Shown piece after piece: positions 3,604 through 64,000 of a DNA stretch of 64,000 bases. The stretch spans positions 22,066 to 86,065 of IMG/VR virus record IMGVR_UViG_3300021599_001992, one strand, 5' to 3'. Made by a program: the position numbers and the translations under genes. The stretch's first letter is position 1; each line of letters opens with the position of its first letter. The DNA is from a virus. Under the pieces are notes generated by a model. That model searched no databases and had not been told where the DNA came from. It was given only the letters and a program-made list of their open reading frames with translations.

Positions 3604-6501
3604 ATGAAAGAGGTTATTTCTCAGGAAATTATCGAAAATTTCCTAAACGGATCCGATCCGGAAGAATTCATAGTTGGTGTAGAATACGATTATCCAACAA
3701 ATACAATTTATAAAATTATACAAGATCCTGAAAAAGGAAAAAAAGTAATATCAGATAAATTCATTCCATTTTTATGGGTTGGTGATTTGTCTGGATTAAA
3801 TTTTTATAATAATTCCAAGGCAACTCAAAAAAGGGCCATGATGAAACATGGTATTCTAATTGAAAAATTGGAAACATATGGAAACGAAAGGTTAGAAAAT
3901 GGTTTAAAATATCTCGTAAAAAGCACAAAAAGTTATACCAATTTAACAAGTTTTTTTAGAGAGGGTGGTGTTGATCCGTGGAATGAAAATTTTAGACAAT
4001 ATTTTCAAGTATTGTCTCCTGTAGAACAATATCTAATAGATAAAAAGAAAAGATTATTCAAGGGTATTGAGAATTATTCAGATGTTTACAGATTCGTATT
4101 TGACATTGAGACTACAGGTCTTGAACCAGAAAAAAATAATATTATTCTTATTGGGGTTAAAGATAATCGTGGATTAAATGAAACAATCCCCGCATTTGGT
4201 CAAGACGGAGAAAAAAAATGTATTGAAAGATTCTTTCAATTAATAAGAGAAAGAAAACCCACAATTATAGGTGGATATAACTCGGCATTTTTCGATTGGC
4301 CCTTTATATTAAAACGTGCAGAAATATTGGGTGTTGATGTACAGGGTTTAACAGCAATCTTTACTCCTAAAGGTATTACGGAAAAAGAAGGTATGTTGAA
4401 ATTAGCAAATGAAGTTGAACCGTATACACAACATGTTATTTGGGGATTTAATATCATTGATATTGCGCACGCAGTTAGAAGAGCACAGGCGATTAATAGT
4501 GAAATTAAATCGTGGGGTTTGAAATATATCACAAAATATTTGGAGAAAGAAAAATCAAATCGTGTGTATGTTGACGGTGCATATATTTCAAAAATATATC
4601 TTGATAATGAGAGTTATTATGTGAATCCAAAAACAGGTAACTATAAAAAAATAGGTGAACCAGGCACAGAGAATTTATTAGAAAAATATCCCGGCAAATT
4701 TGAAATATGGCCAGGTAGAAAAATTGTTGAACAATATCTTGATGATGACTTGTATGAAACTATGATTGTTGACGATTCTTTTTCACAATCAACTTTCTTA
4801 CTTTCAAAACTTGTACCGACAACGTATGAAAGAATCGCAACAATGGGTACCGCAACGTTATGGAAAATAATCATGTTGGCTTGGTCCTATGAAAACAATT
4901 TGGCAATTCCAACTAAAGATGAGAAACGTGCAATCACAGGTGGATTATCAAGGTTATTAAATGTTGGTTATTCAAAGAATATTGTCAAGTTTGACTACGC
5001 GTCACTTTACCCATCTATTCAACTTGTTTATGATGTATTTCCTGAATGTGATGTGATGGGTGTTCAGAAATCAATGCTAAAATATTTCCGTAACATTCGT
5101 ATCAAATACAAAAGACTTGCGGGTGAACTTGCTAAAACAAATCCTGTTGAGGCTGAGATGTACGACCGTAAACAATTACCAATTAAGATTTTCATCAATG
5201 CATACTTTGGTTCACTTTCCGCACCACAAGTATTTCCGTGGGGTGATATGAATATGGGTGAAACAATTACATGTACCGGTAGACAATGTCTCCGTATGAT
5301 GATTATGTTTTTCATGAAGAAAGGATACAAACCACTTGTAATGGATACGGATGGTGTTAACTTTGAAACTCCTGATGACATTCAAAATACAATTTACATA
5401 GGTAAAGGTAATAATGAATTAGTGGAAGAAGGTAAGGAATATAAGGGTATTGAAGCAGATACCGCAGAATTCAATGATTTATTCATGAGAAACGAAATGG
5501 GTTTAGATATTGACTATATGGCACCCGCATGTATTAATGTTTCTCGTAAAAATTATATAATAAAACTAATAAAGAAAGGTAAGGAAAAAATTAAATTAAC
5601 AGGTAACACTATAAAATCTAAAAAACTACAACAATATATTGTGGAATTTTTAGATGAGGGTTTGAAACATCTATTAAATGGTGATGGTGCCTCATTTGTT
5701 GAATTATATTATGAATATGTAACTAAGATATTCAATAAGGAAATACCATTATCTAAGATTGCAAATAAGGCAAGAGTAAAACAATCTGTTGATGAATATA
5801 GAAAACACATTAAAAAAGTAACTAAGGCAGGTTCTTTAATGTCACGTCAGGCACATATGGAACTTGTTATGTTAAATGATTATCCTGCAGGTTTAGGTGA
5901 AACAATTTATTATGTAAATAATGGTCTTAAAAAATCATCGGGGGACGTTCAGAAAATTTCAAAACCAACAAAAAAACAACAGGAAGAATTTTTACAGAAA
6001 CATGGTCATCCCATGCCGTCAGATTACATTGAAATAAATTGTTATATGATTCCTGAAAAGGAAATTCAAAATAATCCTGAGATGACAGGGGAATATAATG
6101 TTGCGAGATATCTCTCCACATTTAACAAAAGAATAGAACCTTTATTGTGTGTTTTCAAACCTGAGATTAGAGAAGATATATTAATTGAAGATCCTAAAGA
6201 CAGACAATATTTTACAAAATCACAATGTGAACTTGTAAACGGTTATCCTTTGAAAGAAGGTGGACAAGATAACTTTGATGAGGTTATGACTTTATCTGAT
6301 AGTGAGGTACTTTTTTGGAACAGAGTGAATAGAGACCCTTTCTTTATGTATGTTGAAAATAGTTTGGAGTTAGTTGATCAATATTGGGTGGATCATAATA
6401 GGAAAGTAGTTTCACTACAGGCAAATAGTACTAAGAGTAATGAGGATGAAATAATTGAAACTAACGGAAATGACTTCGCGTATCACGCGGTGGAAAGTTA
6501 G
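3604..6501 (+). CDS. 43: DNA polymerase, family B (T4 gp43-like)
   Basis: 965 residues, slightly longer than T4 gp43 (898). It is the replicative polymerase with 3'-5' proofreading. Exo I: FDIETTGLE (Asp167, Glu169). Exo II: GGYNSAFFDW (Asn226, Asp231). Probable Exo III: QYLDDDLYE around 377-385. Polymerase motif A: DYASLYPS (Asp464). Motif B: KIFINAYFGS (Lys528, Asn532, Tyr534, Gly536). Motif C: MDTDG (Asp581, Asp583). All catalytic residues are present, so the enzyme should be active. The gene is preceded by a leader with a TATTTATTA box and a hairpin, and it overlaps the convergent gene by four bases at its 3' end. No intein or intron interruption is visible. The clamp and clamp-loader genes are not in this window. 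Confidence 0.97.
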   Translation: MKEVISQEIIENFLNGSDPEEFIVGVEYDYPTNTIYKIIQDPEKGKKVISDKFIPFLWVGDLSGLNFYNNSKATQKRAMMKHGILIEKLETYGNERLENGLKYLVKSTKSYTNLTSFFREGGVDPWNENFRQYFQVLSPVEQYLIDKKKRLFKGIENYSDVYRFVFDIETTGLEPEKNNIILIGVKDNRGLNETIPAFGQDGEKKCIERFFQLIRERKPTIIGGYNSAFFDWPFILKRAEILGVDVQGLTAIFTPKGITEKEGMLKLANEVEPYTQHVIWGFNIIDIAHAVRRAQAINSEIKSWGLKYITKYLEKEKSNRVYVDGAYISKIYLDNESYYVNPKTGNYKKIGEPGTENLLEKYPGKFEIWPGRKIVEQYLDDDLYETMIVDDSFSQSTFLLSKLVPTTYERIATMGTATLWKIIMLAWSYENNLAIPTKDEKRAITGGLSRLLNVGYSKNIVKFDYASLYPSIQLVYDVFPECDVMGVQKSMLKYFRNIRIKYKRLAGELAKTNPVEAEMYDRKQLPIKIFINAYFGSLSAPQVFPWGDMNMGETITCTGRQCLRMMIMFFMKKGYKPLVMDTDGVNFETPDDIQNTIYIGKGNNELVEEGKEYKGIEADTAEFNDLFMRNEMGLDIDYMAPACINVSRKNYIIKLIKKGKEKIKLTGNTIKSKKLQQYIVEFLDEGLKHLLNGDGASFVELYYEYVTKIFNKEIPLSKIANKARVKQSVDEYRKHIKKVTKAGSLMSRQAHMELVMLNDYPAGLGETIYYVNNGLKKSSGDVQKISKPTKKQQEEFLQKHGHPMPSDYIEINCYMIPEKEIQNNPEMTGEYNVARYLSTFNKRIEPLLCVFKPEIREDILIEDPKDRQYFTKSQCELVNGYPLKEGGQDNFDEVMTLSDSEVLFWNRVNRDPFFMYVENSLELVDQYWVDHNRKVVSLQANSTKSNEDEIIETNGNDFAYHAVES

Positions 6502-8710: not shown

Positions 8711-10432
8711 ATCCTTACTAAAAGTTTCGGAATATTCACCATCACCCATAACTTGATCAATTATATTCTTTTTCTTTTGCAGAATATTATATATTATTTT
8801 TTCAATAGTATTTTCAAAAACAGGATAATATACAAGTACACTATTTTTTTGTCCGTATCTATATGCACGATCTTCCGCTTGACTATGATGTGCAGGAACA
8901 AATGACAAGTCATTCATAATCACAGTTTCGGCTGCAGTTAATGTTATCCCAACACCACCCGCAACAATATTTGATATGAATATTTTAATTTTATCTTCAT
9001 TTTGAAACCTGTCTACAGATTCTTGTCTTCTTTCTTTAGTCATACGACCATCAAGGACCACAGATTGTTTTTTATATTTCTCGTGTAACATATCTAAAGT
9101 CATCGTAAAATTTGTAAACACAATTACTTTTTTACCCTGTTCTAAACATCTATCAATTATTTCACATGTATAAGGAATTTTTTCATATGAAATTAATTGT
9201 CTTACTTTCATTAAACGATTTAATGTTACACTAATAGTATCTGTTTCCTTATTTTCTTTACTGATTCTTGTAAATTCTTCGAGTTCTTCATCATACATTT
9301 TAGAATTTAGTTCAACAAATATTGGAGTTATAATTTTTTCAGGTAAATCAAGAATATCTGTTTTCATTCTACGAAGTACAATATTTTTAGTTCTTTCTCT
9401 TAACTCATCCAAATTACTTGCACCGCTTGTGTTCCAAACTTTTCTATTACCAACTCTAAATTGAAATCCCTTACAATATCTTTTAACATATGTTTGCCAA
9501 TTAAGTGTTAAAGGTGAATCTACAATTTTAAGGAGATTAAAATAATTAATCGGTCTCGATGTCATTGGAGTACCTGTAAGTAACCATACTTTTGGTATTT
9601 GATCTAAAACATCATTTAGTAATCTTGTTCTATTTGCCGTAGTATTTGAAATATAGTGTGCCTCATCTACAATTGCCAAATCAAAACCTTCATTAACCAA
9701 TAATTTATAATCATCACTATCTTCACTTTTATCTGTTGTGTGATAATTCTTTAATATATCATAATTTATTATATAAAAATCAAAAGTGGATCCCCATTTA
9801 CGACCCTCTACAATTAATGTTCTTCTATCGGTATAATTTTCAATTTCTCTTTTCCAATTTATTTTTAATGATGCGGGACAGACAATTAATATTTTTTTTG
9901 CTCCACTTTCTAATGCACCGATAACAGCTGAAGTAGTTTTACCTAAACCCATATCATCCGCAAGAATAAATTTATCATTTGCTAATAATTTTTCAACTGC
10001 AGTTTTTTGATGATCCATGGGTGGTCTACTTCCATATTTAGAATAATCAATTACTCTATTTAATTTTTTTTCGGGTTGTACTACCGCCGCCTTCGGTAAC
10101 CAAAATGCATTATTTTGTTCAGAATCTATAATCTTACCCCATATGTGATACGCTTTTTCACTTTCACATAATAATTTTTCACACCATATTTTTGTTGGGG
10201 GTACAGGTAGTAATTTGTCTTCTTGAATTTTTTCTCCAAAAGTTGAGACTATCTCAATATATTTTCTTGCAATTTTAGGAACACTATCTTTATACTTTAA
10301 AACATATTCAGCTTGTGGACGAGTAAGTTTAAAATTTTTTTGATCAATAAATTTTCTTTTCCAATCTAATAGTTGATTATTGGAACCATCGTAATTTGAT
10401 AATAATTCTCTTGCCTCTATTTCAGGTATCAT
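8690..10432 (-). CDS. SNF2-family (HepA/SMARCAL1-like) helicase
   Basis: 580 residues from the ATG at 10432; a GTG at 10510 is rejected because it would cross the divergent gene and its leader. Superfamily 2 ATPase motifs are complete: motif I DDMGLGKTT (near residue 160), Ia IVCPASLKINWKREI, motif II VDEAH, motif III LLTGTPM, IV KVIVFTNF, V NIVAGGVGITLTAA, and VI QAEDRAYRYGQ, which is diagnostic of SNF2 rather than T4 UvsW. The N-terminal 130 residues lack a recognisable domain. Relatives remodel DNA-protein complexes or anneal and regress replication forks; a recombination or fork-repair role equivalent to UvsW is plausible. It is transcribed against its neighbours and shares a divergent 53-base promoter interval with the gene at 10486. 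Confidence 0.93.
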   Translation of the reverse strand: MIPEIEARELLSNYDGSNNQLLDWKRKFIDQKNFKLTRPQAEYVLKYKDSVPKIARKYIEIVSTFGEKIQEDKLLPVPPTKIWCEKLLCESEKAYHIWGKIIDSEQNNAFWLPKAAVVQPEKKLNRVIDYSKYGSRPPMDHQKTAVEKLLANDKFILADDMGLGKTTSAVIGALESGAKKILIVCPASLKINWKREIENYTDRRTLIVEGRKWGSTFDFYIINYDILKNYHTTDKSEDSDDYKLLVNEGFDLAIVDEAHYISNTTANRTRLLNDVLDQIPKVWLLTGTPMTSRPINYFNLLKIVDSPLTLNWQTYVKRYCKGFQFRVGNRKVWNTSGASNLDELRERTKNIVLRRMKTDILDLPEKIITPIFVELNSKMYDEELEEFTRISKENKETDTISVTLNRLMKVRQLISYEKIPYTCEIIDRCLEQGKKVIVFTNFTMTLDMLHEKYKKQSVVLDGRMTKERRQESVDRFQNEDKIKIFISNIVAGGVGITLTAAETVIMNDLSFVPAHHSQAEDRAYRYGQKNSVLVYYPVFENTIEKIIYNILQKKKNIIDQVMGDGEYSETFSKDLIKELL

Positions 10433-10485: not shown

Positions 10486-10998
10486 ATGGACAACAAACTA
10501 CCAATAACACGTTTAAGTAAGTTTTTTTCTCAAGACGATTTTGACATTAATATTCAATTGGGTCAAGAATATCTTCATGGAGATTTAAACATGAAGGTTG
10601 TTTTGTATAGAATTGATAGAACAAGTACTGATACCGATTCGGTCTACGCTGAAGCGGGAAAAGATCAGAAAAAATTTTATCCTCCTATGGAAATCAATGC
10701 ATTGGTTAAAATTGATGAACCAAAAAACTCATCATATAAAAATGGTTTGGTTAGATATAGTGAACCGGGTAATCTAACACTTTCAGTATATATAAGACAT
10801 TTAGAGGAGTTAAAGGTTGATATAACATATGGTGATTATATTGGATATGCTGATTCAGAAAATAAATTAAGATTTTATACTGTAACAAATGATGGTAAAG
10901 TCACATCTGATAATAAACATAAAATGTTTGGTTATAAACCACATTACAGAACAATAACTTGTGTACCAACACAGGAAAACGAATTTAGAGGAGTTTAA
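10486..10998 (+). CDS. Probable virion structural protein (neck/tail completion)
   Basis: 170 residues, family not recognised with confidence. It starts MDNKLPITRLSKFFSQDDFDINIQLGQEYL and ends with a conserved-looking beta segment (ITYGDYIGYADSENKLRFYTVTNDGKV) followed by YKPHYRTITCVPTQ. No enzymatic or membrane motif is visible. It stands two bases before the next gene (stop at 10998, start at 11001), so the two are one unit, and both lie directly before the tail sheath, where T4 encodes its neck and tail-completion proteins (gp13 to gp15). That synteny is the main argument for the role. Confidence 0.65.
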   Translation: MDNKLPITRLSKFFSQDDFDINIQLGQEYLHGDLNMKVVLYRIDRTSTDTDSVYAEAGKDQKKFYPPMEINALVKIDEPKNSSYKNGLVRYSEPGNLTLSVYIRHLEELKVDITYGDYIGYADSENKLRFYTVTNDGKVTSDNKHKMFGYKPHYRTITCVPTQENEFRGV

Positions 10999-11000
10999 TC

Positions 11001-12254
11001 ATGGGTATACCTAAAAGAAAAAATAATATTGATGTATACAGTAAAAGGGAACATCTAAGAGGTCAAGATATTGTTGACAGAAGACAAGAACTTTTAGATA
11101 GAATCACAAAATCCGATTCCTATTTACCCGACTCAATTCTTCATGATGATTTGGATGGAGGAATGTTAGATTTTGTCAAGAAGAACTTTAAAATCGTTAC
11201 AGACGGTGAATCAATCCCAATTATTCCAAAAATATTAACAATTCAAAGATGGGGTGAATTTTCAAATAATTGGGAATTTTCAGATGAAGACGGTAATGTT
11301 AAAATACCGTTTATTGCAATTGTGAGAAAACCTGATGTTCAACCAGGTACCAATCCTGTTACACAAAGAACAATTCCTGATAGAAGTACTTTTTATTATG
11401 CGTCAGTACCTACTTGGAATGGAACACAAATGGGTGCAGATATATATAAAATCCCGCAACCTGTTGCAGTTGATTTGTCATTTGATGTTACAATTGTTTG
11501 TAATAAGTTTAGAGATTTAAATAGATTTAATAAAATAGTTTTACAGAAATTTTCTTCAAGACAAGCATACACATCAATTAAAGGTCATTACATACCTATT
11601 GTTTTAGATAAAATAGAAGATAACACACCAATGGATACAATAGATGGTCGTAGATTTTACATCCAAAATTACACCTTTATTATGTTGGGTATTTTAATAG
11701 ATTCTGAAGAATTTGAGGTAAAGCCGGCTATAAGTAGATTCTTTTTATTAAATGAATTTTTAAAAGGTGGTAATGTAGGTAAAAAAATAGTTAAGAGAGG
11801 ATTATTTGAAACTAAAACCGCAACATTTGTGGCCGATGGAATGCAAACACAATTCAGTGTTGGTGAGACAATTGGAATTTTATTTAATGTAACAATAAAT
11901 GGTATAATACAAGAAAGAGATACAGATTACTTTCATATTTCAAAAACATCTAAAATAACTTTTGATAACCCACCCCCTGATGGATCTTCAATTGTCATAT
12001 CGTATTATGTAGGAAGTAAGGAAACTCTTGTTGATGAATATGGTAAAATATTTAACGTTTCTACAGAATATTTTACATTTACAGGAAATAGAGAAATAAA
12101 CGTTACGAATTACGTTAGTGACGTAATTTCTTTGGATATAAACGGTTTATTAGAAGAAGAAGGATCAGGATTTGAAGTTTTAGGTGGAACAAAAATATCA
12201 TTATTATTTAGTCCAGCGTTAAATTCAAGAATTGGTATAACGTACCTACACTAA
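11001..12254 (+). CDS. Virion structural protein upstream of sheath (neck/tail terminator candidate)
   Basis: 417 residues. The N-terminal two thirds contain long recognisable-looking stretches (IPKILTIQRWGEFSNNWEF, IPFIAIVRKPDVQPGTN, IYKIPQPVAVDLSFDVTI, QKFSSRQAYTSIKGHYIP) that suggest a compact virion protein with strong conservation; I could not assign it to a T4 gene. The C-terminal third is two consecutive beta modules: FSVGETIGILFNVTINGIIQE..ITFDNPPPDGSSIVISYYV and YFTFTGNREINVTNYVSDVISLDINGLLEE..ISLLFSPALNSRIGITYLH. These share the order INGxxxE, then a strand ending in an aromatic. An AGAGGAG sequence upstream is one of the few Shine-Dalgarno-like sites here. The position before the sheath suggests a neck, terminator or sheath-completion role. 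Confidence 0.65.
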   Translation: MGIPKRKNNIDVYSKREHLRGQDIVDRRQELLDRITKSDSYLPDSILHDDLDGGMLDFVKKNFKIVTDGESIPIIPKILTIQRWGEFSNNWEFSDEDGNVKIPFIAIVRKPDVQPGTNPVTQRTIPDRSTFYYASVPTWNGTQMGADIYKIPQPVAVDLSFDVTIVCNKFRDLNRFNKIVLQKFSSRQAYTSIKGHYIPIVLDKIEDNTPMDTIDGRRFYIQNYTFIMLGILIDSEEFEVKPAISRFFLLNEFLKGGNVGKKIVKRGLFETKTATFVADGMQTQFSVGETIGILFNVTINGIIQERDTDYFHISKTSKITFDNPPPDGSSIVISYYVGSKETLVDEYGKIFNVSTEYFTFTGNREINVTNYVSDVISLDINGLLEEEGSGFEVLGGTKISLLFSPALNSRIGITYLH

Positions 12255-54182: not shown

Positions 54183-57100
54183 ATGTACGATAAGAAGATA
54201 ACAGAACTACCCTCCGGCTCGCTTACAGCAGTTACTAATGATTCGAATACAAATCCAGGAGCAACGTCTCCTGATATAACACCCGATGATTGGGATCTGA
54301 TGACATCAGTGGGTTCATCAGGTACATCAGGTTCTGCGGGTACATCAGGATCAAGCGGAACGTCAGGTAGTTCAGGTACGTCTGGAACATCTGGTACCTC
54401 AGGATCAAGCGGTACTTCAGGTAGTTCGGGTACGTCCGGTACGAGTGGATCATCAGGGACAAGCGGATCTTCGGGATCAACAGGAACATCAGGTACCTCA
54501 GGATCAAGCGGATCGTCAGGAACAAGTGGTTTAAATGGTGATAGATATAAAACAACATCAACAAGTACTTTTACATTACCAAATAGTGGTACATTAACAG
54601 TTGGAACGGATTTATCATATTCAACCGCACAATCTATTGTAATTGCGGTAAGCGGTGATCCAACAACATATCAAGAATGTATCGTAACATCATATAATCC
54701 ATCAACAGGTCAATTACAATTTAGTGCACCAACTTCTTCAACAGGAGGAGGTACATATACCGCTTGGGAAATTAATCTCGATGGTGCAACAGGACAAAAT
54801 GGTACTTCAGGTACGTCTGGTACATCAGGAACATCTGGTTCAGACGGATCTTCGGGAACCTCTGGTTCAAATGGAACATCTGGAACATCTGGTAGTTCAG
54901 GAACATCGGGTAGTGCTGGTACATCAGGTACTTCAGGTACTTCAGGTTCTTCAGGTACAAGTGGATCTTCTGGTACTTCAGGAACTTCTGGTTCGGACGG
55001 ATCTTCAGGTACAAGTGGAACCTCAGGTACATCAGGAACTTCTGGTTCATCAGGAACCACGGGTTCATCTGGTACAAGTGGATCATCAGGATCTTCGGGG
55101 TCTTCTGGTACATCGGGAATTGATGGCACATCAGGAACAAGTGGTTCATCTGGTTCATCGGGTACATCAGGTACATCTGGTACGGATGGTTCCAGTGGTA
55201 CAAGTGGAACAAGTGGTAGTTCGGGTACGTCCGGTTCATCAGGAACGTCAGGTAGTGCTGGTACATCAGGAACATCAGGTACATCAGGATCTTCAGGAAC
55301 TTCAGGTAGTTCGGGTATAAGTGGGGACAAATATTTTACAACTTCAAATACAAATTTTTCAGTTTCACCAAGCGGAACAACAATAAATTTCACAGGTGGA
55401 ACGAATTTAGCATATACAACGGTACAATCTGTTATTGTTGTTAATAGTCCCTCAAATTATATGGAGGGAGAGATAGTTTCATATGATTTAAATACAGGTG
55501 CATTTTCTGTATATGTTACAAGATCTTTCGGTAGTGGAACATATAATTCTTGGGAAATTAATCTTGATGGTGCTTCTGGTGGTGACGGTACTTCAGGTAC
55601 AAGTGGAACCTCAGGTACATCAGGTACAAGTGGTTCATCAGGCACATCAGGTTCATCTGGTACATCGGGATTAGATGGTACACACGGGTCTTCAGGAACA
55701 AGTGGAACCTCAGGTGCTGACGGTACTTCAGGTAGTTCAGGTTTAGATGGTTCATCAGGTACATCTGGTACAAGCGGTAATCAAGGTTTAGAAGGTCACT
55801 TAGCAATATGGAAGTATAGTTCAAGTAACGATACATCTTCAGACCCAACATCGGGCTATTTTAGATTTAATATAACAGATTGGGGAACATCACCATCTGC
55901 ATTGGCGGTTAGTGATATTGCGTATATCCCTTCGTTATCAAGTTTTACAACATTTTTAAATAATTTACAAATTGGATCATACTTGAAATTTGTCAAGAAA
56001 AATGATCCGATGACATTCAAGACATTAAGAATTGATGCGATAAATCCATTACAATCTTCCTATGAGGATTATGTGGTTTCACAAGTATCTTCTGGAGGAT
56101 CATTACCAAATAATGACGATGAATTCTTAGTAATACCAATTGGTATTGCTGGATCTTCAGGAACGTCAGGTAGTTCAGGAACATCTGGTACAAGTGGATC
56201 ATCTGGTTCATCTGGTAGTTCAGGAACATCTGGTACAAGTGGATCATCTGGTTCGACTGGTACAAGTGGAACATCTGGTTCATCGGGATCTTCGGGAAGT
56301 TCTGGTACAAGTGGAACATCTGGTTCATCGGGATCTTCGGGAAGTTCTGGTGCGGGTGTTATGAACTATTATGCTTCTTATAGTAGTAATCAAACACAAA
56401 ATGTTACCGCATCGAATACACCAACAATTGTATCATATACAGATACTGAAATTGAAAATGGTATTACATTATTGAGTGGAAATACCGTTCAAGTAAATTA
56501 TAATGGTATATATGAGTTTTCATATTCACCACAAGTGGAAAAAACTCAAGGAACAGAATCTTTAATGAGTTTTTGGCTTCGAGTAAATGGAACAGATGTT
56601 CCGAGATCAGATTCATATATTGATTTGGTTGCGAATTCTACGCTACAATTACCTTTTGTTAGTATAATATTAGATTTAACTCAAGGTGATGAAGTACAAC
56701 TTGTCATGGCAAGTGAATCTCAATATGCTCGACTTACTGCATTAAGTGGAACAACAACTCCTTTTATTGCACCAGCCGCACCATCTATTATAGTTAATAT
56801 TAAAAATATTGGTGTAGCTGCAGTTGCATACACCTCAACATCAGGATCATCTGGTACATCAGGAACAAGTGGTACATCAGGTTCTTCAGGAAGTACTGGT
56901 ACATCAGGAACAAGTGGATCTTCCGGTTCAAGTGGTAGTTCAGGTACTTCAGGAACATCAGGTACATCAGGATCTTCAGGAACATCGGGATCATCGGGAA
57001 CAAGTGGAACTTCAGGATCATCTGGTAGTTCAGGAACTTCAGGATCATCTGGTAGTAGTGGTAGTAGCGGTACTTCAGGTACATCAGGTTCATCTGGCAC

Positions 57101-60100
57101 TTCAGGAACAAGTGGTACTTCAGGTTCATCCGGAACTGCGGGTACTTCAGGAACATCAGGTACATCAGGATCTTCTGGAAGTAGTGGTACATCTGGTACT
57201 TCAGGAACATCTGGTTCATCAGGTAGTTCCGGATCTGCTGGTACATCAGGTACTTCAGGTCTCTCAAATTCCTTTTTTAATTATCAAGCAAAAACAAACT
57301 CAACAAGTGGTGATCCTGGAACAAGTTTCATACTATGGGATAATGTGTCTCAGACAGGTGCAACAAGTTTAAATATAAGTGATACCGATGGTTTAAATAA
57401 TAATCTTGATATTTTCTTAGGAACACTTGCATCGGGATCTGTTATAGTTTTACAAGATCAATCAAGCCATTTGAATTACCAAAGATGGATGATTGGTACA
57501 TCAGTTGATAATACAACTTATTATACGTTTCCTTCAACTTTACAAAGTCAAGGTGGATCGTCTATATTTTCAAATAATCAACAACTCTTATTAATAATTG
57601 GATCAACACCATCGGGAACATCAGGTTCTTCTGGTACATCAGGAACAAGTGGGTCAAACGGATCATCAGGCACTTCAGGTTCTTCTGGAACAAGTGGAAC
57701 AAGCGGGTCTGCGGGCACATCAGGATCAGACGGTTCATCAGGAACCTCAGGTACATCAGGATCTTCTGGTACCTCTGGTTCATCAGGAACATCAGGAACT
57801 TCAGGATCATCTGGTTCTTCAGGAAGTAGTGGTACATCAGGAACAAGTGGATCTTCCGGTTCAAGTGGTACATCAGGGTCATCCGGTACTTCAGGAACAT
57901 CAGGTACTTCAGGTATAAATGGATCAAGTGGAACCTCAGGTACATCAGGTACTTCAGGAACAAGTGGTTCAAGTGGATCATCAGGATCTACAGGGACAAG
58001 TGGATCTTCAGGATCCTCAGGCACATCTGGAACATCTGGTATTTCTGGATCAAGTGGATCATCAGGAACAAGTGGTACTTCTGGTTCAAGTGGATCTACA
58101 GGTACATCTGGTACATCAGGAACAAGTGGTAGTAGTGGATCTACAGGTACATCTGGTACATCAGGTTCAAGTGGATCATCGGGTACATCAGGAACATCTG
58201 GCACAAGTGGTTCTTCGGGTTCGAGTGGATCATCGGGTACATCTGGTACAAGTTTTGTATTTGATAGTTCAGGATGTGATCCCGATTACGTTTGGGAACA
58301 ATATAATTCAACATCATATTATAGAACAGAAGTTACAGGTGCAACTGCACCAACCTCAGCAATCAATTTGACTGGACGTACATTAAATGTGTACAGTAGT
58401 TTCGGTACACAATTCATGTCGAGTGATTTTAATTCAAATGGTACAGGCACTTACGATTTTCAATATAGTACACCTCAATCAGGTGGAAGTTATACAGGAA
58501 CAACTTGGGGTAACCCCAACTTATCAACTGTCGGTCCGTTGAATAGATGTGCATTATGGACCAATCCATATGGAAGTGCACCTATTGATACTTGGGTTGG
58601 ATTCTCAGTTTGTTTAAGTGGATTTACTTCAGAAAAAACATATTATGTTGGTATAGGTGGGGACAATGAGTATAGATTTGTACTTGACGGCGTTGAAATT
58701 TTAAACACGTATGGAAATGTTTGGAATGACGAACAATTTAAATGGTGGCATGTTTATCCTATTCAAATAGGTGGAGGTACACATATTCTTGAAATATATG
58801 GTTTAAACTTAGGAAGTGATGCAGGTTTTGGTTGTGAAATTTATGACAATACGTTATCAGAATTAACAGGTGCAACATCTTACTCTGAATTAAATGTAGT
58901 TTATACAACAAGTGGAGAAACAACCGCAACAATAGTACAAGATATAAATGGAGATTATTTATCATCAGGATACACATGTCCATCTGGTTTTGTTTATTCA
59001 GAGTGTAGTGGTAATTGTGTAAGTACAATCTTCTGTACCGCCGGACAAGTTGGATCTTCTGGTACTTCTGGTACTTCAGGTACTTCAGGAACATCAGGTA
59101 TAAATGGAACATCTGGTACTTCAGGTACTTCAGGAACATCAGGTATAAATGGAACATCTGGTACTTCAGGTACGAGTGGATCAGATGGTTCATCAGGTAC
59201 TTCAGGTACCTCAGGTTCAAGTGGATCATCGGGTACATCAGGTACTTCAGGTTCAAGCGGATCTTCCGGTTCAAGCGGATCTTCCGGTTCAAGTGGAAGC
59301 TCTGGTAGCTCGGGTACTTCAGGTACATCAGGATCAAGCGGATCTTCCGGTTCAAGTGGATCATCAGGTACTTCAGGTACCTCAGGTTCAAGTGGATCAT
59401 CGGGTACATCAGGTACTTCAGGTTCAAGCGGATCGTCAGGAACATCAGGTGATTCAATTTTTGCTCAAACGGGATCATATTGGTCAACAACAAATAATTT
59501 AAAAGTTACAGGTTCATTAGATGTTAAAGGTACAATAAGTGCTAACGAATTTTTTGTTACATATGTATCGTCATCGGTAATGTACTCATCAGGATCAACA
59601 AAATTTGGTGACACATTGGATGATAATCATCAATTTACAGGATCGATTTATGTTAATGGATTTACAACAGGATCAACATCAACTGAAGTTGTTGTTTATA
59701 ATACATTAACAGGAAAATTAGAAACAAAAACAAATGCATCTTCTTCTGGAACATCAGGATCATCTGGTTCTTCAGGTACGTCTGGTGTGAATGGAACTTC
59801 TGGTACTTCAGGTTCTAATGGATCATCGGGTACATCAGGATCATCTGGTTCTTCAGGAAGTAGTGGTTCAAGCGGATCATCTGGTTCTTCAGGAAGTAGT
59901 GGTTCAAGTGGTTCTTCAGGAAGTAGTGGTTCAAGTGGTTCTTCAGGGTCAAGCGGTTCATCAGGTAGTTCTGGAACATCAGGATCTAATGGTTCTTCTG
60001 GAACATCAGGATCTAATGGTTCTTCTGGAACATCAGGATCTAATGGTTCATCTGGCACATCGGGATCTAATGGTTCTTCTGGCACATCGGGATCTAATGG

Positions 60101-60983
60101 TTCTTCTGGAACATCAGGAGCGGCAACGATTAACAACAATAACGACAATTATGTATTGACTGCAACAGGTACAAGTGGACTAATTAATGGTGAAGCTTAT
60201 TTCACATTTAATGGACAAAGTGCACTTATTAAGAATGATTCTGCAGGAAATACAACTGTACTTGCTTCAGTATATACAGGGGCCACTCTATCAAGTTTAC
60301 AGGAAGTAAATTTAATAAACGCAAGTGTTGCTGCCAGATCTGCAAATTTCAACATATCATATAGAGAAGGTGAAATTACACCAACTGATATGATGCATAT
60401 CTACTCACAAGGTGGATTCTACATGAAAATTTATGATGATGTTGCAGCAACCAATAGATTTCACAGATTCGATGATAGTGGTAAAGTTGGATTCAATAGT
60501 AGTACTGCACCAACATATCATTTAGAAGTTAACGGTAGCCAAAAAATTATATCAGGTGCACTTGGTGTTAATGTAAATCCAAATGCTACCGCCGGTAGAA
60601 TAGATGCTTCGAATGATGTTGTGGCATATTCATCTGATAAAAGATTAAAAACTAATATTAAACCAATTGAAAATTCATTAGATAAAGTATTATCATTAAA
60701 AGGTTTCACTTATAATTGGAATGAATTGGCAAAAGAAGTTGCAAACTTTAATACAGAAGAAAGTTTAGTCGGTGTGTTTGCACAAGAAATTAAAGATGTA
60801 CTTCCTGAGGCAGTAAAACTTGCACCATTTGATAATGATGGTAACGATAATTCGAAGAGTGGTGAAAATTACTTAACTGTTCAGTATGAAAAAATTGTAC
60901 CATTATTAATCGAGGCAATTAAAGAACAACAAAATCAAATAAACGAATTAAAAAAAATTATTGAAAATGGAACTAATTCTTAA
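54183..60983 (+). CDS. Giant collagen-like tail fibre with S74 chaperone
   Basis: 2266 residues. After an N-terminal attachment segment of about 40 residues, eight blocks of Gly-X-Y triplets (mostly GTS, GSS, occasionally GSD, GSA, GIN, GSN) alternate with seven domains. Domains 1 (about 120-200) and 2 (about 382-460) are paralogous (..GTYTAWEINLDGATG and ..GTYNSWEINLDGASG). Domains 3 and 5 also resemble each other. Domain 4 (about 727-885) is C1q/TNF-like (NYNGIYEFSYSP). Domain 6 (about 1360-1620) has a PA14-like look with YYVGIGGDNEYRFVLDG and Cys pairs. The C-terminus (about 2148-2266) is an S74 intramolecular chaperone with SSDKRLKTNIKPI (Ser2151, Lys2156), which trimerises the fibre and usually cleaves itself off. 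It is a host-recognition fibre; the triplets should form a long triple helix or similar shaft. Confidence 0.9.
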   Translation: MYDKKITELPSGSLTAVTNDSNTNPGATSPDITPDDWDLMTSVGSSGTSGSAGTSGSSGTSGSSGTSGTSGTSGSSGTSGSSGTSGTSGSSGTSGSSGSTGTSGTSGSSGSSGTSGLNGDRYKTTSTSTFTLPNSGTLTVGTDLSYSTAQSIVIAVSGDPTTYQECIVTSYNPSTGQLQFSAPTSSTGGGTYTAWEINLDGATGQNGTSGTSGTSGTSGSDGSSGTSGSNGTSGTSGSSGTSGSAGTSGTSGTSGSSGTSGSSGTSGTSGSDGSSGTSGTSGTSGTSGSSGTTGSSGTSGSSGSSGSSGTSGIDGTSGTSGSSGSSGTSGTSGTDGSSGTSGTSGSSGTSGSSGTSGSAGTSGTSGTSGSSGTSGSSGISGDKYFTTSNTNFSVSPSGTTINFTGGTNLAYTTVQSVIVVNSPSNYMEGEIVSYDLNTGAFSVYVTRSFGSGTYNSWEINLDGASGGDGTSGTSGTSGTSGTSGSSGTSGSSGTSGLDGTHGSSGTSGTSGADGTSGSSGLDGSSGTSGTSGNQGLEGHLAIWKYSSSNDTSSDPTSGYFRFNITDWGTSPSALAVSDIAYIPSLSSFTTFLNNLQIGSYLKFVKKNDPMTFKTLRIDAINPLQSSYEDYVVSQVSSGGSLPNNDDEFLVIPIGIAGSSGTSGSSGTSGTSGSSGSSGSSGTSGTSGSSGSTGTSGTSGSSGSSGSSGTSGTSGSSGSSGSSGAGVMNYYASYSSNQTQNVTASNTPTIVSYTDTEIENGITLLSGNTVQVNYNGIYEFSYSPQVEKTQGTESLMSFWLRVNGTDVPRSDSYIDLVANSTLQLPFVSIILDLTQGDEVQLVMASESQYARLTALSGTTTPFIAPAAPSIIVNIKNIGVAAVAYTSTSGSSGTSGTSGTSGSSGSTGTSGTSGSSGSSGSSGTSGTSGTSGSSGTSGSSGTSGTSGSSGSSGTSGSSGSSGSSGTSGTSGSSGTSGTSGTSGSSGTAGTSGTSGTSGSSGSSGTSGTSGTSGSSGSSGSAGTSGTSGLSNSFFNYQAKTNSTSGDPGTSFILWDNVSQTGATSLNISDTDGLNNNLDIFLGTLASGSVIVLQDQSSHLNYQRWMIGTSVDNTTYYTFPSTLQSQGGSSIFSNNQQLLLIIGSTPSGTSGSSGTSGTSGSNGSSGTSGSSGTSGTSGSAGTSGSDGSSGTSGTSGSSGTSGSSGTSGTSGSSGSSGSSGTSGTSGSSGSSGTSGSSGTSGTSGTSGINGSSGTSGTSGTSGTSGSSGSSGSTGTSGSSGSSGTSGTSGISGSSGSSGTSGTSGSSGSTGTSGTSGTSGSSGSTGTSGTSGSSGSSGTSGTSGTSGSSGSSGSSGTSGTSFVFDSSGCDPDYVWEQYNSTSYYRTEVTGATAPTSAINLTGRTLNVYSSFGTQFMSSDFNSNGTGTYDFQYSTPQSGGSYTGTTWGNPNLSTVGPLNRCALWTNPYGSAPIDTWVGFSVCLSGFTSEKTYYVGIGGDNEYRFVLDGVEILNTYGNVWNDEQFKWWHVYPIQIGGGTHILEIYGLNLGSDAGFGCEIYDNTLSELTGATSYSELNVVYTTSGETTATIVQDINGDYLSSGYTCPSGFVYSECSGNCVSTIFCTAGQVGSSGTSGTSGTSGTSGINGTSGTSGTSGTSGINGTSGTSGTSGSDGSSGTSGTSGSSGSSGTSGTSGSSGSSGSSGSSGSSGSSGSSGTSGTSGSSGSSGSSGSSGTSGTSGSSGSSGTSGTSGSSGSSGTSGDSIFAQTGSYWSTTNNLKVTGSLDVKGTISANEFFVTYVSSSVMYSSGSTKFGDTLDDNHQFTGSIYVNGFTTGSTSTEVVVYNTLTGKLETKTNASSSGTSGSSGSSGTSGVNGTSGTSGSNGSSGTSGSSGSSGSSGSSGSSGSSGSSGSSGSSGSSGSSGSSGSSGSSGSSGTSGSNGSSGTSGSNGSSGTSGSNGSSGTSGSNGSSGTSGSNGSSGTSGAATINNNNDNYVLTATGTSGLINGEAYFTFNGQSALIKNDSAGNTTVLASVYTGATLSSLQEVNLINASVAARSANFNISYREGEITPTDMMHIYSQGGFYMKIYDDVAATNRFHRFDDSGKVGFNSSTAPTYHLEVNGSQKIISGALGVNVNPNATAGRIDASNDVVAYSSDKRLKTNIKPIENSLDKVLSLKGFTYNWNELAKEVANFNTEESLVGVFAQEIKDVLPEAVKLAPFDNDGNDNSKSGENYLTVQYEKIVPLLIEAIKEQQNQINELKKIIENGTNS
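54306..60119 (+). repeat. Eight Gly-X-Y coding repeat blocks of the fibre
   Basis: Blocks at roughly 54306-54535, 54790-55325, 55570-55790, 56145-56355, 56838-57262, 57608-58250, 59047-59450 and 59740-60119. They encode GTS/GSS triplets with varied synonymous codons (GGA/GGT, TCA/TCT/AGT/AGC, ACA/ACT/ACC/ACG), so that the DNA is a degenerate 9-base repeat. This same pattern creates long false open frames on the reverse strand. Confidence 0.9.
59982..60116 (+). repeat. Five 27-base tandem repeats in fibre gene
   Basis: Five almost identical 27-base units starting GGATCTAATGGTTC encode GSNGSSGTS five times. Only a few synonymous changes (TCT/TCA, GGA/GGC, TCA/TCG) separate the units, unlike the heavily scrambled older blocks, so this array is probably recent or expanding. 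Confidence 0.88.
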
Positions 60984-61240: not shown

Positions 61241-61681
61241 ATGGGGTTGAACATTAGATTACACAATATAGACTTAGAAAATAATTTTACATTATTTTAC
61301 AAAACCGGAACAACTTTAGGAAGTCATGTCTCTGGTTTTTCTGCATATTCTATAGGTGCAAATAGTGGTGTGATCTATACAGGATCAACTTATAGAGATT
61401 ATGATGTTAATCCTATTGTTTTTACGGGTGCAACATTTAATACACAATATTGGTTCAAATTTGTCTATACAGGTGAAACAACTGACACAGGGTATCTAAT
61501 ACAAAACATATACACACATGATTCAATTTACTATGGTGACTGTGTTGGATGTTGTGATATTGGATTAGTAGTTGGTGGAGGTGTTTTTTATGTTGCTAAT
61601 TGTGCTCCACCAATAATAGATAGTTTGATATGTAATAACGACCCAACGCCAACCAACACCAACCCCAACAGAACCGTGTGA
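61241..61681 (+). CDS. Adhesin gene, first segment (frame breaks in Thr-Pro linker)
   Basis: 146 residues from the ATG at 61241; an upstream frame start at 61220 would overlap the TATTTATTA box. The protein is a beta-rich domain (NFTLFYKTGTTLGSHVSGFS, NTQYWFKFVYTGETTDTGYL) with a Cys-rich turn (YYGDCVGCCDIG) and a C-terminal CNNDPTPTN leading into a Thr-Pro linker. Inside that linker the frame runs out to a TGA, while the +1 frame carries on with linker and adhesin sequence (see 61653-62129). The intact gene was therefore probably one protein of about 375 residues across three frames. Fibronectin-like or other Ig fold is likely; function inferred from neighbours. Confidence 0.65.
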   Translation: MGLNIRLHNIDLENNFTLFYKTGTTLGSHVSGFSAYSIGANSGVIYTGSTYRDYDVNPIVFTGATFNTQYWFKFVYTGETTDTGYLIQNIYTHDSIYYGDCVGCCDIGLVVGGGVFYVANCAPPIIDSLICNNDPTPTNTNPNRTV

Positions 61682-62129
61682 ATGTGTATATTTTGATGTA
61701 ACAATTTCTTCAAATGATTTGTTGTCAGCAACAGGAAACACAAATCCGTCTGAAGATGGTAAGGTATATGTATTGTATTGGAATTGCCCTGAATTATTAA
61801 CACAAGAAGAATTAATATATGACACTGACGGTACATATACAAACGCATTTTGTTCAACAATAAATGGTGATTATCAACCAATAGTTTATTATTATCACGA
61901 TGACCAACAAGAATTTGGTTCAAGTTATCCGATAACACCGTTCCAAGTGTTGTCAACATATGAAGATACAGGAGTTTGCTGTACATCTCCTACACCTACA
62001 CCAACACCCACTCCGACACCCACAGAAGCTTCAATGATACCTTTAACTATTAGATGCACATCATTTGCGTCACATAGTGAAACAGATTTAAGAGTATGGG
62101 TTAAAGATGTCAAATTACCCAAATGTTAG
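61653..62129 (+). CDS. Adhesin gene, second segment (+1 frame)
   Basis: Open in the +1 frame without a sensible start codon (the first in-frame initiation codon is a TTG at 61719). Read from the linker it gives PTPTPTEPCECVYFDVTISS, then beta sequence with GKVYVLYWNCPE and YQPIVYYYHDDQ, a second Thr-Pro linker ([12 protein letters not shown]), and RCTSFASHSETDLRVWVK before a TAG at 62127. It is best seen as the middle of a split adhesin gene, not as an independent gene. The RCTSFASH module is encoded a second time at the end of the window by an identical sequence. Confidence 0.5.
   Translation, partial: PTPTPTEPCECVYFDVTISSNDLLSATGNTNPSEDGKVYVLYWNCPELLTQEELIYDTDGTYTNAFCSTINGDYQPIVYYYHDDQQEFGSSYPITPFQVLSTYEDTGVCCTSPTPTPTPTPTPTEASMIPLTIRCTSFASHSETDLRVWVKDVKLPKC
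62016..62106 (+). repeat. 91-base perfect direct repeat, copy 1
   Basis: Identical over all 91 bases to 63910-64000. It covers the end of a Thr-Pro linker and the codons for EASMIPLTIRCTSFASH and the next residues. Copy 2 meets the window end, so the true repeat may be longer. Confidence 0.97.
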
Positions 62130-62370
62130 TAGTGCAATATATGCGAATATTGGTGATATGATTTATATTGGATTAACAAACACCGGTGATCAAGATATTC
62201 AATTTGGTGAAGGACAAAATCAAGATAATACAGAAGCAATTGATATAAATAATTATATTGGATATTGTGGTAAAACAACACCATACAGTTTTGTTGCAAC
62301 CTCAAGTAATATAATTTATTTCAATATACTTGTTAATTCCAGTGGAGTAGGAGTTTTTGTTACTTGTTAA
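62107..62370 (+). CDS. Adhesin gene, third segment (+1 frame again)
   Basis: 87 residues from an ATG at 62107 in the next +1 frame. The start overlaps the previous segment by 23 bases. Dropping one A from the AAA at about 62112-62114 would join DLRVWVKD to VNYPNVSSAIYANIG, giving a continuous small domain (MIYIGLTNTGDQDIQFGEGQ, YCGKTTPYSFVATSSNIIYF) that ends in FVTC. The ATG therefore may or may not be used. With the previous two segments it forms a modular adhesin with two linkers; here it would be the end of the terminal module. Confidence 0.5.
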   Translation: MSNYPNVSSAIYANIGDMIYIGLTNTGDQDIQFGEGQNQDNTEAIDINNYIGYCGKTTPYSFVATSSNIIYFNILVNSSGVGVFVTC

Positions 62371-62385
62371 TAATTAATATAAAAT

Positions 62386-63183
62386 ATGTCATTTAATATA
62401 ACGATATCAGGAATTACAGGAGGGACACAAATATCAACAGTACAAATTTTAGAATGTACTGATGGTGATTGTAATTCTTGTACACTAATTCCATCATATG
62501 GAAGTGTTTTATTGTCAACATTAAACACTCCTGGCATCACGATTACAAACATTAATGATAACACATCATATATTAAAATAGCACCTAATGGAGTATGTAG
62601 TGGAAATACATTGTGTTTACCGGTACAAAACAAACCAACACCCACACCTACTCCTACACCAACTGCAACTCCTACTCCTACACCAACCGTAACTCCTACA
62701 CCAACCGTAACTCCTACACCAACCGTAACTCCTACACCAACTGCAACCCCTACTCCTACACCAACAGATACGCCAACGCCAACTCCAACCGTAACTCCTA
62801 CACCAACACCAACTCCCACAGTTACACCAACACAATTATTTTGGTCAATAACAGAAAATGCTGGAGGAGGAATAACAATATATGATAAAGATAATAACAT
62901 ATTGTTAAATGAAAATGTAACATTATCAGAATCGGGAAAAAATGGAACATTAACCGTAAGTGAATTGGTATTACCATATAAAATAAAAGGATTTTGGCAA
63001 AACGGATCAGGTAATATAGTGAATTTTATAGTTTGTGATTTATCAACTCCAATTCAATTGTACACAAGTGTACCAATCGATAACTTTGTTGGATATGATG
63101 AATATATTGTCGATCCAACACCATTAAATGTTTCTGTTACAATGTGGAAAGACGGTCAACCATCGGCAATTTGTCCAATATAA
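62386..63183 (+). CDS. Modular adhesin with Thr-Pro linker
   Basis: 265 residues. An N-terminal domain of about 80 residues ([22 protein letters not shown], Cys-rich DGDCNSCTL and [12 protein letters not shown]) is joined through a 66-residue Thr-Pro linker (about 83-148) to a C-terminal beta domain ([53 protein letters not shown]). Frame is intact, unlike the upstream gene. The four Cys in the first domain could form disulfides in the virion or bind metal. The role is probably receptor binding or surface decoration. Confidence 0.7.
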
Positions 63184-63210
63184 ATTAATTAAAATATGAA
63201 CAAAATATAA

Positions 63211-64000
63211 ATGGCAACTTTAACTATAAATTGGACACCACCTGTGAGTTGTATAGGTTGTACTTTTGAATATAGATATAAACTATCATCAGATGTTACA
63301 TATACAACAGGTACAACTTCAAGTTCACCTTTAGTAATCACATCCCTAACCGATGGTGAAACTTATGACTATGGTATGAGGACCGATTGCGGAGGAATTA
63401 AAAGTGATTGGACATCTTCATCGACAGTTACCTGTGGTGGAGGAGAAATAATTCCACCAACACCTACACCTACCACAACTCCAACACCTACTCCCACTGC
63501 AACACCAACCGATACTCCAACGCCAACTTCAACCGCCACACCCACACCAACACCTACCACAACTCCAACACCTACACCTACCACAACTCCAACACCTACT
63601 CCCACTGCAACACCAACGCCAACCCCAACACCGACTATACAGTTATATTTATCGTCAACAATTAACGGTGCGTGTGGACAAGTTAGTGGACAAATATTAA
63701 CAAATGTTTCATTTACAGGAGGTCCTGATTATTGTAATTATACAACATTAAATTCAACTGAAATTCCACCACTATCAAATGGTACGTACTATGTTTCTGA
63801 CGGTGTTAATGTAAGATCATGGACCAAAGACACAACACCATCAGTCTTATTTAACCCTTCATCGTGTACACCATGTACAACACCTACACCAACCGATACT
63901 CCAACGCCAACACCCACAGAAGCTTCAATGATACCTTTAACTATTAGATGCACATCATTTGCGTCACATAGTGAAACAGATTTAAGAGTATGGGTTAAAG
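63211..64000 (+). CDS. FN3-domain adhesin with Thr-Pro linkers (3' truncated)
   Basis: At least 263 residues, open at the window end. The N-terminal 75 residues are a fibronectin type III-like domain (LTINWTPPVSCIGCTFEYRY, SSPLVITSLTDGETYDYGMR). A 58-residue Thr-Pro linker (about 83-140) follows, then a beta module with TIQLYLSSTINGACGQVSG and SNGTYYVSDGVNVRSW, a second short Thr-Pro linker, and the RCTSFASHSETDL module, identical at DNA level to that at 62016-62106. It is a candidate for recombination with the broken adhesin upstream. Function: surface adhesion, by architecture. Confidence 0.75.
   Translation, partial: MATLTINWTPPVSCIGCTFEYRYKLSSDVTYTTGTTSSSPLVITSLTDGETYDYGMRTDCGGIKSDWTSSSTVTCGGGEIIPPTPTPTTTPTPTPTATPTDTPTPTSTATPTPTPTTTPTPTPTTTPTPTPTATPTPTPTPTIQLYLSSTINGACGQVSGQILTNVSFTGGPDYCNYTTLNSTEIPPLSNGTYYVSDGVNVRSWTKDTTPSVLFNPSSCTPCTTPTPTDTPTPTPTEASMIPLTIRCTSFASHSETDLRVWVK
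63910..64000 (+). repeat. 91-base perfect direct repeat, copy 2 (may continue past window)
   Basis: Identical to 62016-62106, offset 1894 bases. The identity reaches the last base of the window. Confidence 0.97.

Follow-up and report, generated by a model that had tools for sequence, protein, structure and literature searches.

The DNA analysed here (the window) is a stretch of 64,000 nucleotides that corresponds to bases 22066–86065 of an 86,065-base IMG/VR record (IMGVR_UViG_3300021599_001992), classed as linear. Towards its right end lies a collagen-like fibre gene of 2266 codons (54183–60983), whose end domain is of the S74 (endosialidase chaperone) type. After it come three adhesin-like genes that contain long Pro-Thr linkers, all four genes being on the + strand. 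Gene 1 (61241–62370) is spread over three frames in the window, gene 2 (62386–63183) has a Pro-Thr linker and is intact, and gene 3 (63211–64000), which runs to the last base, has 478 codons in two further contigs of this phage (66 kb and 34 kb, hereafter the relatives). None of the three adhesin-like genes matched a Pfam domain, and the structure predicted for domain C, with which gene 1 ends, consists entirely of strands and has a mean pLDDT of 51, too poor for a fold search. The baseplate wedge protein shares 26.6% identity with its counterpart in Flavobacterium phage immuto, making the window phage a distant relative of known myoviruses. This immuto-like wedge protein and the adjoining S74 fibre gene are reminiscent of the collagen-like/S74 tail-fibre loci of Flavobacterium-type myoviruses. 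Unlike in those loci, the gene found just past the adhesin cluster in the relatives (gene 4) has no match among 50,697 phage records.

An exact comparison of the assembled letters showed that positions 62016–62106 (copy 1) and 63910–64000 (copy 2) are identical at 91 of 91 bases on the same (+) strand, confirming the perfect direct repeat reported in the initial annotation. Copy 1 comprises the final codons of the last Pro-Thr linker of gene 1 and the first ~25 residues of domain C. Copy 2 continues the reading frame of gene 3 and is read there in the frame that it has in gene 1, and its join falls on the border between linker and domain. In the assembled letters, of which ~25 residues are visible, the domain thus stands behind the Pro-Thr linkers of two different genes with both frame and border conserved. 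The linker directly before copy 2 (63885–63911, + strand) is unlike that of the relatives and includes 26 bases identical to another part of gene 3 itself (63502–63527). The left edge of the repeat is exact, as the bases preceding the two copies differ and the match has no leftward extension. It is the longest exact repeat of the window; the next longest (74, 62, 54 and 53 bases) all lie in low-complexity arrays. A comparable pair was found in 0 of 100 shuffles of the window, which rules out a chance origin of the match.

The right edge of the repeat has a different character. Base 64000 of the window is base 86065 of the 86,065 in the record, i.e., the physical end of the contig, so that copy 2 is cut by the assembly and not by the window, and this edge of the repeat was set by the assembly. 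The initial annotation had copy 2 meeting the window edge, which is correct as to its position, but the edge is the contig's own end and there is no sequence past 64000. Its caveat about repeat collapse or duplication in assembly was justified and carries more weight than its author could know, with the copy lying at a contig end and its length of 91 bases fitting a k − 1 overlap. Repeats are not a usual property of contig ends in such loci, as the repeated end stretch was at most 17 bases at 65 other ends of related contigs. Terminal redundancy of a complete phage genome was also rejected, since the contig start (60–127 bases) is unrepeated and the contig end is repeated only in the interior; nor is this the end overlap of a circular genome, in which the matching copy would lie at the other contig end.

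Contigs bearing the repeated module were found by pattern searches of viral contigs, and the relatives were the only viral contigs in which further copies of domain C were found; it was absent from the other relatives retrieved via gene 4. The 66-kb contig is 99.93% identical to the window over 27 kb and the 34-kb contig 99.5% identical over 11 kb. Both are independent assemblies from other samples, and each carries the module once, with flanks 99.5–100% identical to those in the window, and lacks the second copy. In the relatives, gene 1 is an intact frame of 437 codons (read in the 66-kb contig; the 34-kb contig has no indel there), and the linker of gene 3 continues into a domain other than C. 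Between 61652 and 63884, the window and the 66-kb contig differ by zero substitutions. The 34-kb relative (contig G001, L027/L028) carries 60 linker-region bases, at 10678–10737 of its reverse complement, that are missing from the 66-kb relative.

Two junctions break the frame of gene 1 in the window. At 62106/62107 (+ strand), 68 bases present in both relatives are missing from a blunt junction with 0 bases of homology, and at 61651/61652 (+ strand), within the Pro-Thr linker, 116 bases of both relatives are missing, with 2 bases of homology. The 68-base skip starts at the same base of the repeat as that where the contig ends. The fibre gene is also shorter than in both relatives, by 240, 45, 180 and 144 bases, all in frame. 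The 240 bases are N-terminal (missing at 54245/54246, with 2 bases of junction homology), and their absence may reflect either variation between strains or one more skipped gap. The other three differences are in repeat arrays, at 56257 (45 bases), 57939 (180 bases) and 60009 (144 bases), the first of which corresponds to one collapsed unit of an exact tandem repeat of 95 bases. In the opposite direction, there is only a single, small difference between the window and the relatives (6 bases). The broken frames ascribed earlier to the gene holding copy 1 are real in the letters, but are absent from the two other contigs of the phage, and skipped sequence accounts for them better than a pseudogene does. 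Read in this way, they leave a repair reservoir with nothing to explain. The initial annotation had regarded copy 2 as a possible reservoir for repair or switching of a broken gene, an idea that is not supported: the gene is intact in two other samples, its breaks are skips with 0–2 bases of homology, and the two largest records, both fragments, gave no hit to a reverse transcriptase or tyrosine integrase.

Similar skips are present in other contigs. Twenty locus pairs were compared, of which 19 were near-identical, and most of these were gap-free. Relative to a near-identical contig of the same phage, contig L076 has a blunt skip of 96 bases near 11711, and contig L068 has blunt skips of 262, 156 and 103 bases near 787, 2030 and 5385, respectively. 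Their junctions show 0–7 bases of homology, and the 103-base skip splits a conserved gene of 312 codons in the sister contig. Such joins therefore occur in this collection. Gaps with 17–152 bases of junction homology were seen in three further pairs. The letter N was found in none of the 108 fetched loci (1.65 Mb), raising the possibility that scaffold gaps may have been closed up without N, which is a guess.

The proposed explanation, given moderate confidence, is that short-read assembly stopped at a repeated sequence, and that part of domain C probably also lies behind the linker of gene 3, either in this very genome or in a strain coexisting with it. In the sampled population, this part would follow the gene 3 Pro-Thr linker over a length exceeding 91 bases, and of about 250 in the model. 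With 91-base overlaps (k = 92), a graph assembler would end its left piece at 62106, begin the next at 62107 and end that at 64000, and joining the two pieces over the collapsed repeat, without its middle 68 bases, would produce a false frame break. When a toy graph was built with a 250-base repeat (91 + 68 + 91), k = 92 was the only one of ten values of k to reproduce both ends (62106 and 64000) together with the start at 62107. The length of 250 bases was picked to fit that start, so the test lies in the shared 91-base offset alone. Tandem repeats hint independently at the value of k: the exact 95-base repeat of the relatives has collapsed in the window and the one next in length, of 74 bases, is retained, placing k between 75 and 95. 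A maximum k of 92 is a published setting of IDBA-UD (PMC10653850).

The window is consistent with such a graph in two respects. Its exact repeat ends at the contig end and has a length that would match the overlap of a k = 92 assembly, as expected of an assembly-graph overlap (k or k − 1), and its repeats above and below the overlap length behave as predicted. Both the length of 91 bases and the broken gene look like marks of assembly. The agreement of the repeat with a 91-base overlap could be due to chance, and the blunt skips of 240 and 116 bases need another cause, such as strain variation.

Whether copy 2 represents real DNA bears on the strongest alternative, a pure assembly or library chimera, in which the second copy exists in no genome and the tail of the contig was misjoined from pieces of Pro-Thr-rich linker and module. 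Several observations point this way: the gene 3 linker leads to another domain in both other contigs of this phage, the linker before copy 2 is mosaic-like, with its 26-base piece of another linker, the contig has other false-looking joins, and the junction at 63910 is held by no other viral contig. Words of 21 bases or more that span this junction are, however, absent from both relatives, so a graph assembler would be unable to build it from such DNA alone; a simple small-k graph chimera of relatives-type DNA was rejected on these grounds. The join is also in frame and at a linker-domain border, and a chimera is considered rather unlikely. On balance, the sample appears to have held the sequence of copy 2, in this genome or in a coexisting strain. 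A more specific possibility, which can be put forward only tentatively, is that a full copy of domain C, identical over at least 250 bases, was very recently passed from gene 1 to gene 3 of this strain through recombination at the Pro-Thr linkers.

It is improbable that the contig is correct as written, with the copy 1 gene truly broken by deletions and copy 2 a recent, intact copy able to repair or replace it. The letters do read so, related phages have exact duplicates between adhesin modules, and a true deletion in copy 1 would, for any k below 91, likewise stop the contig at 64000. Against this, a single gene would have to carry two frame-breaking deletions, each with 0–2 bases of homology, amid 2.2 kb free of substitutions relative to a contig in which the gene is intact, and blunt skips are known as differences between contigs of the same phage elsewhere. 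Programmed diversification or switching of the adhesins, by a diversity-generating retroelement or a site-specific recombinase, is highly improbable. Adhesin genes, a repeat and variable linkers are all present, but the repeat is exact and direct rather than inverted, and no template/variable pair with adenine changes was seen. Searches for reverse transcriptase (PF00078, controls positive) and tyrosine recombinase (PF00589) found nothing in either the window's record or the 66-kb contig, both of which are fragments, and a switch based on a retroelement or integrase was rejected.

The interpretation of an assembly halted at a true repeat carries a caution for metagenome phages, in that an exact repeat where a contig ends, or a break of frame at a skip with little or no junction homology, can mimic gene duplication, pseudogenes or switching. 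If the second copy is real, it would be one more case of adhesin domains moving via repetitive linkers, and would bear on host-binding change in these phages; if gene 3 did gain the complete domain, the locus would capture in nature how phage adhesin domains are copied from gene to neighbouring gene. Recombination at repetitive linkers, shifting whole binding domains among adhesin genes, would be the origin of such a copy. The window resembles adhesin and tail-fibre domain exchange through repetitive linkers in having a domain behind the Pro-Thr linkers of two genes, and the corresponding region of related phages contains exact duplicates of 45–110 bases, within adhesin genes or between them. 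The recent duplication or gene conversion of an adhesin end module, as first suggested for this repeat, is supported as plausible by these duplicates and by the in-frame position of copy 2 at the end of the gene 3 linker, but it is unproven, and would amount at most to ordinary adhesin-domain shuffling in a freshwater phage.

The exact duplicates in related phages measure 95, 62, 57 and 45 bases between different adhesin genes, and a further one, of 110 bases, is shared by two similar genes that lie side by side; linker recombination is thus an ordinary process here. They mostly sit inside longer stretches of 70–89% identity, whereas the match in the window is exact and can be followed only to the contig end. 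In contig L036, an exact 95-base duplicate (59–153 and 9607–9701) is shared by two adhesin genes ~9.5 kb apart, and the same is found in L037, an identical contig from another sample; this pair illustrates the natural copying of an adhesin module better than the window does. In contig L090, the exact 110-base duplicate (4617–4726 and 5450–5559) lies in two adjacent genes that are 87% identical over 650 bases.
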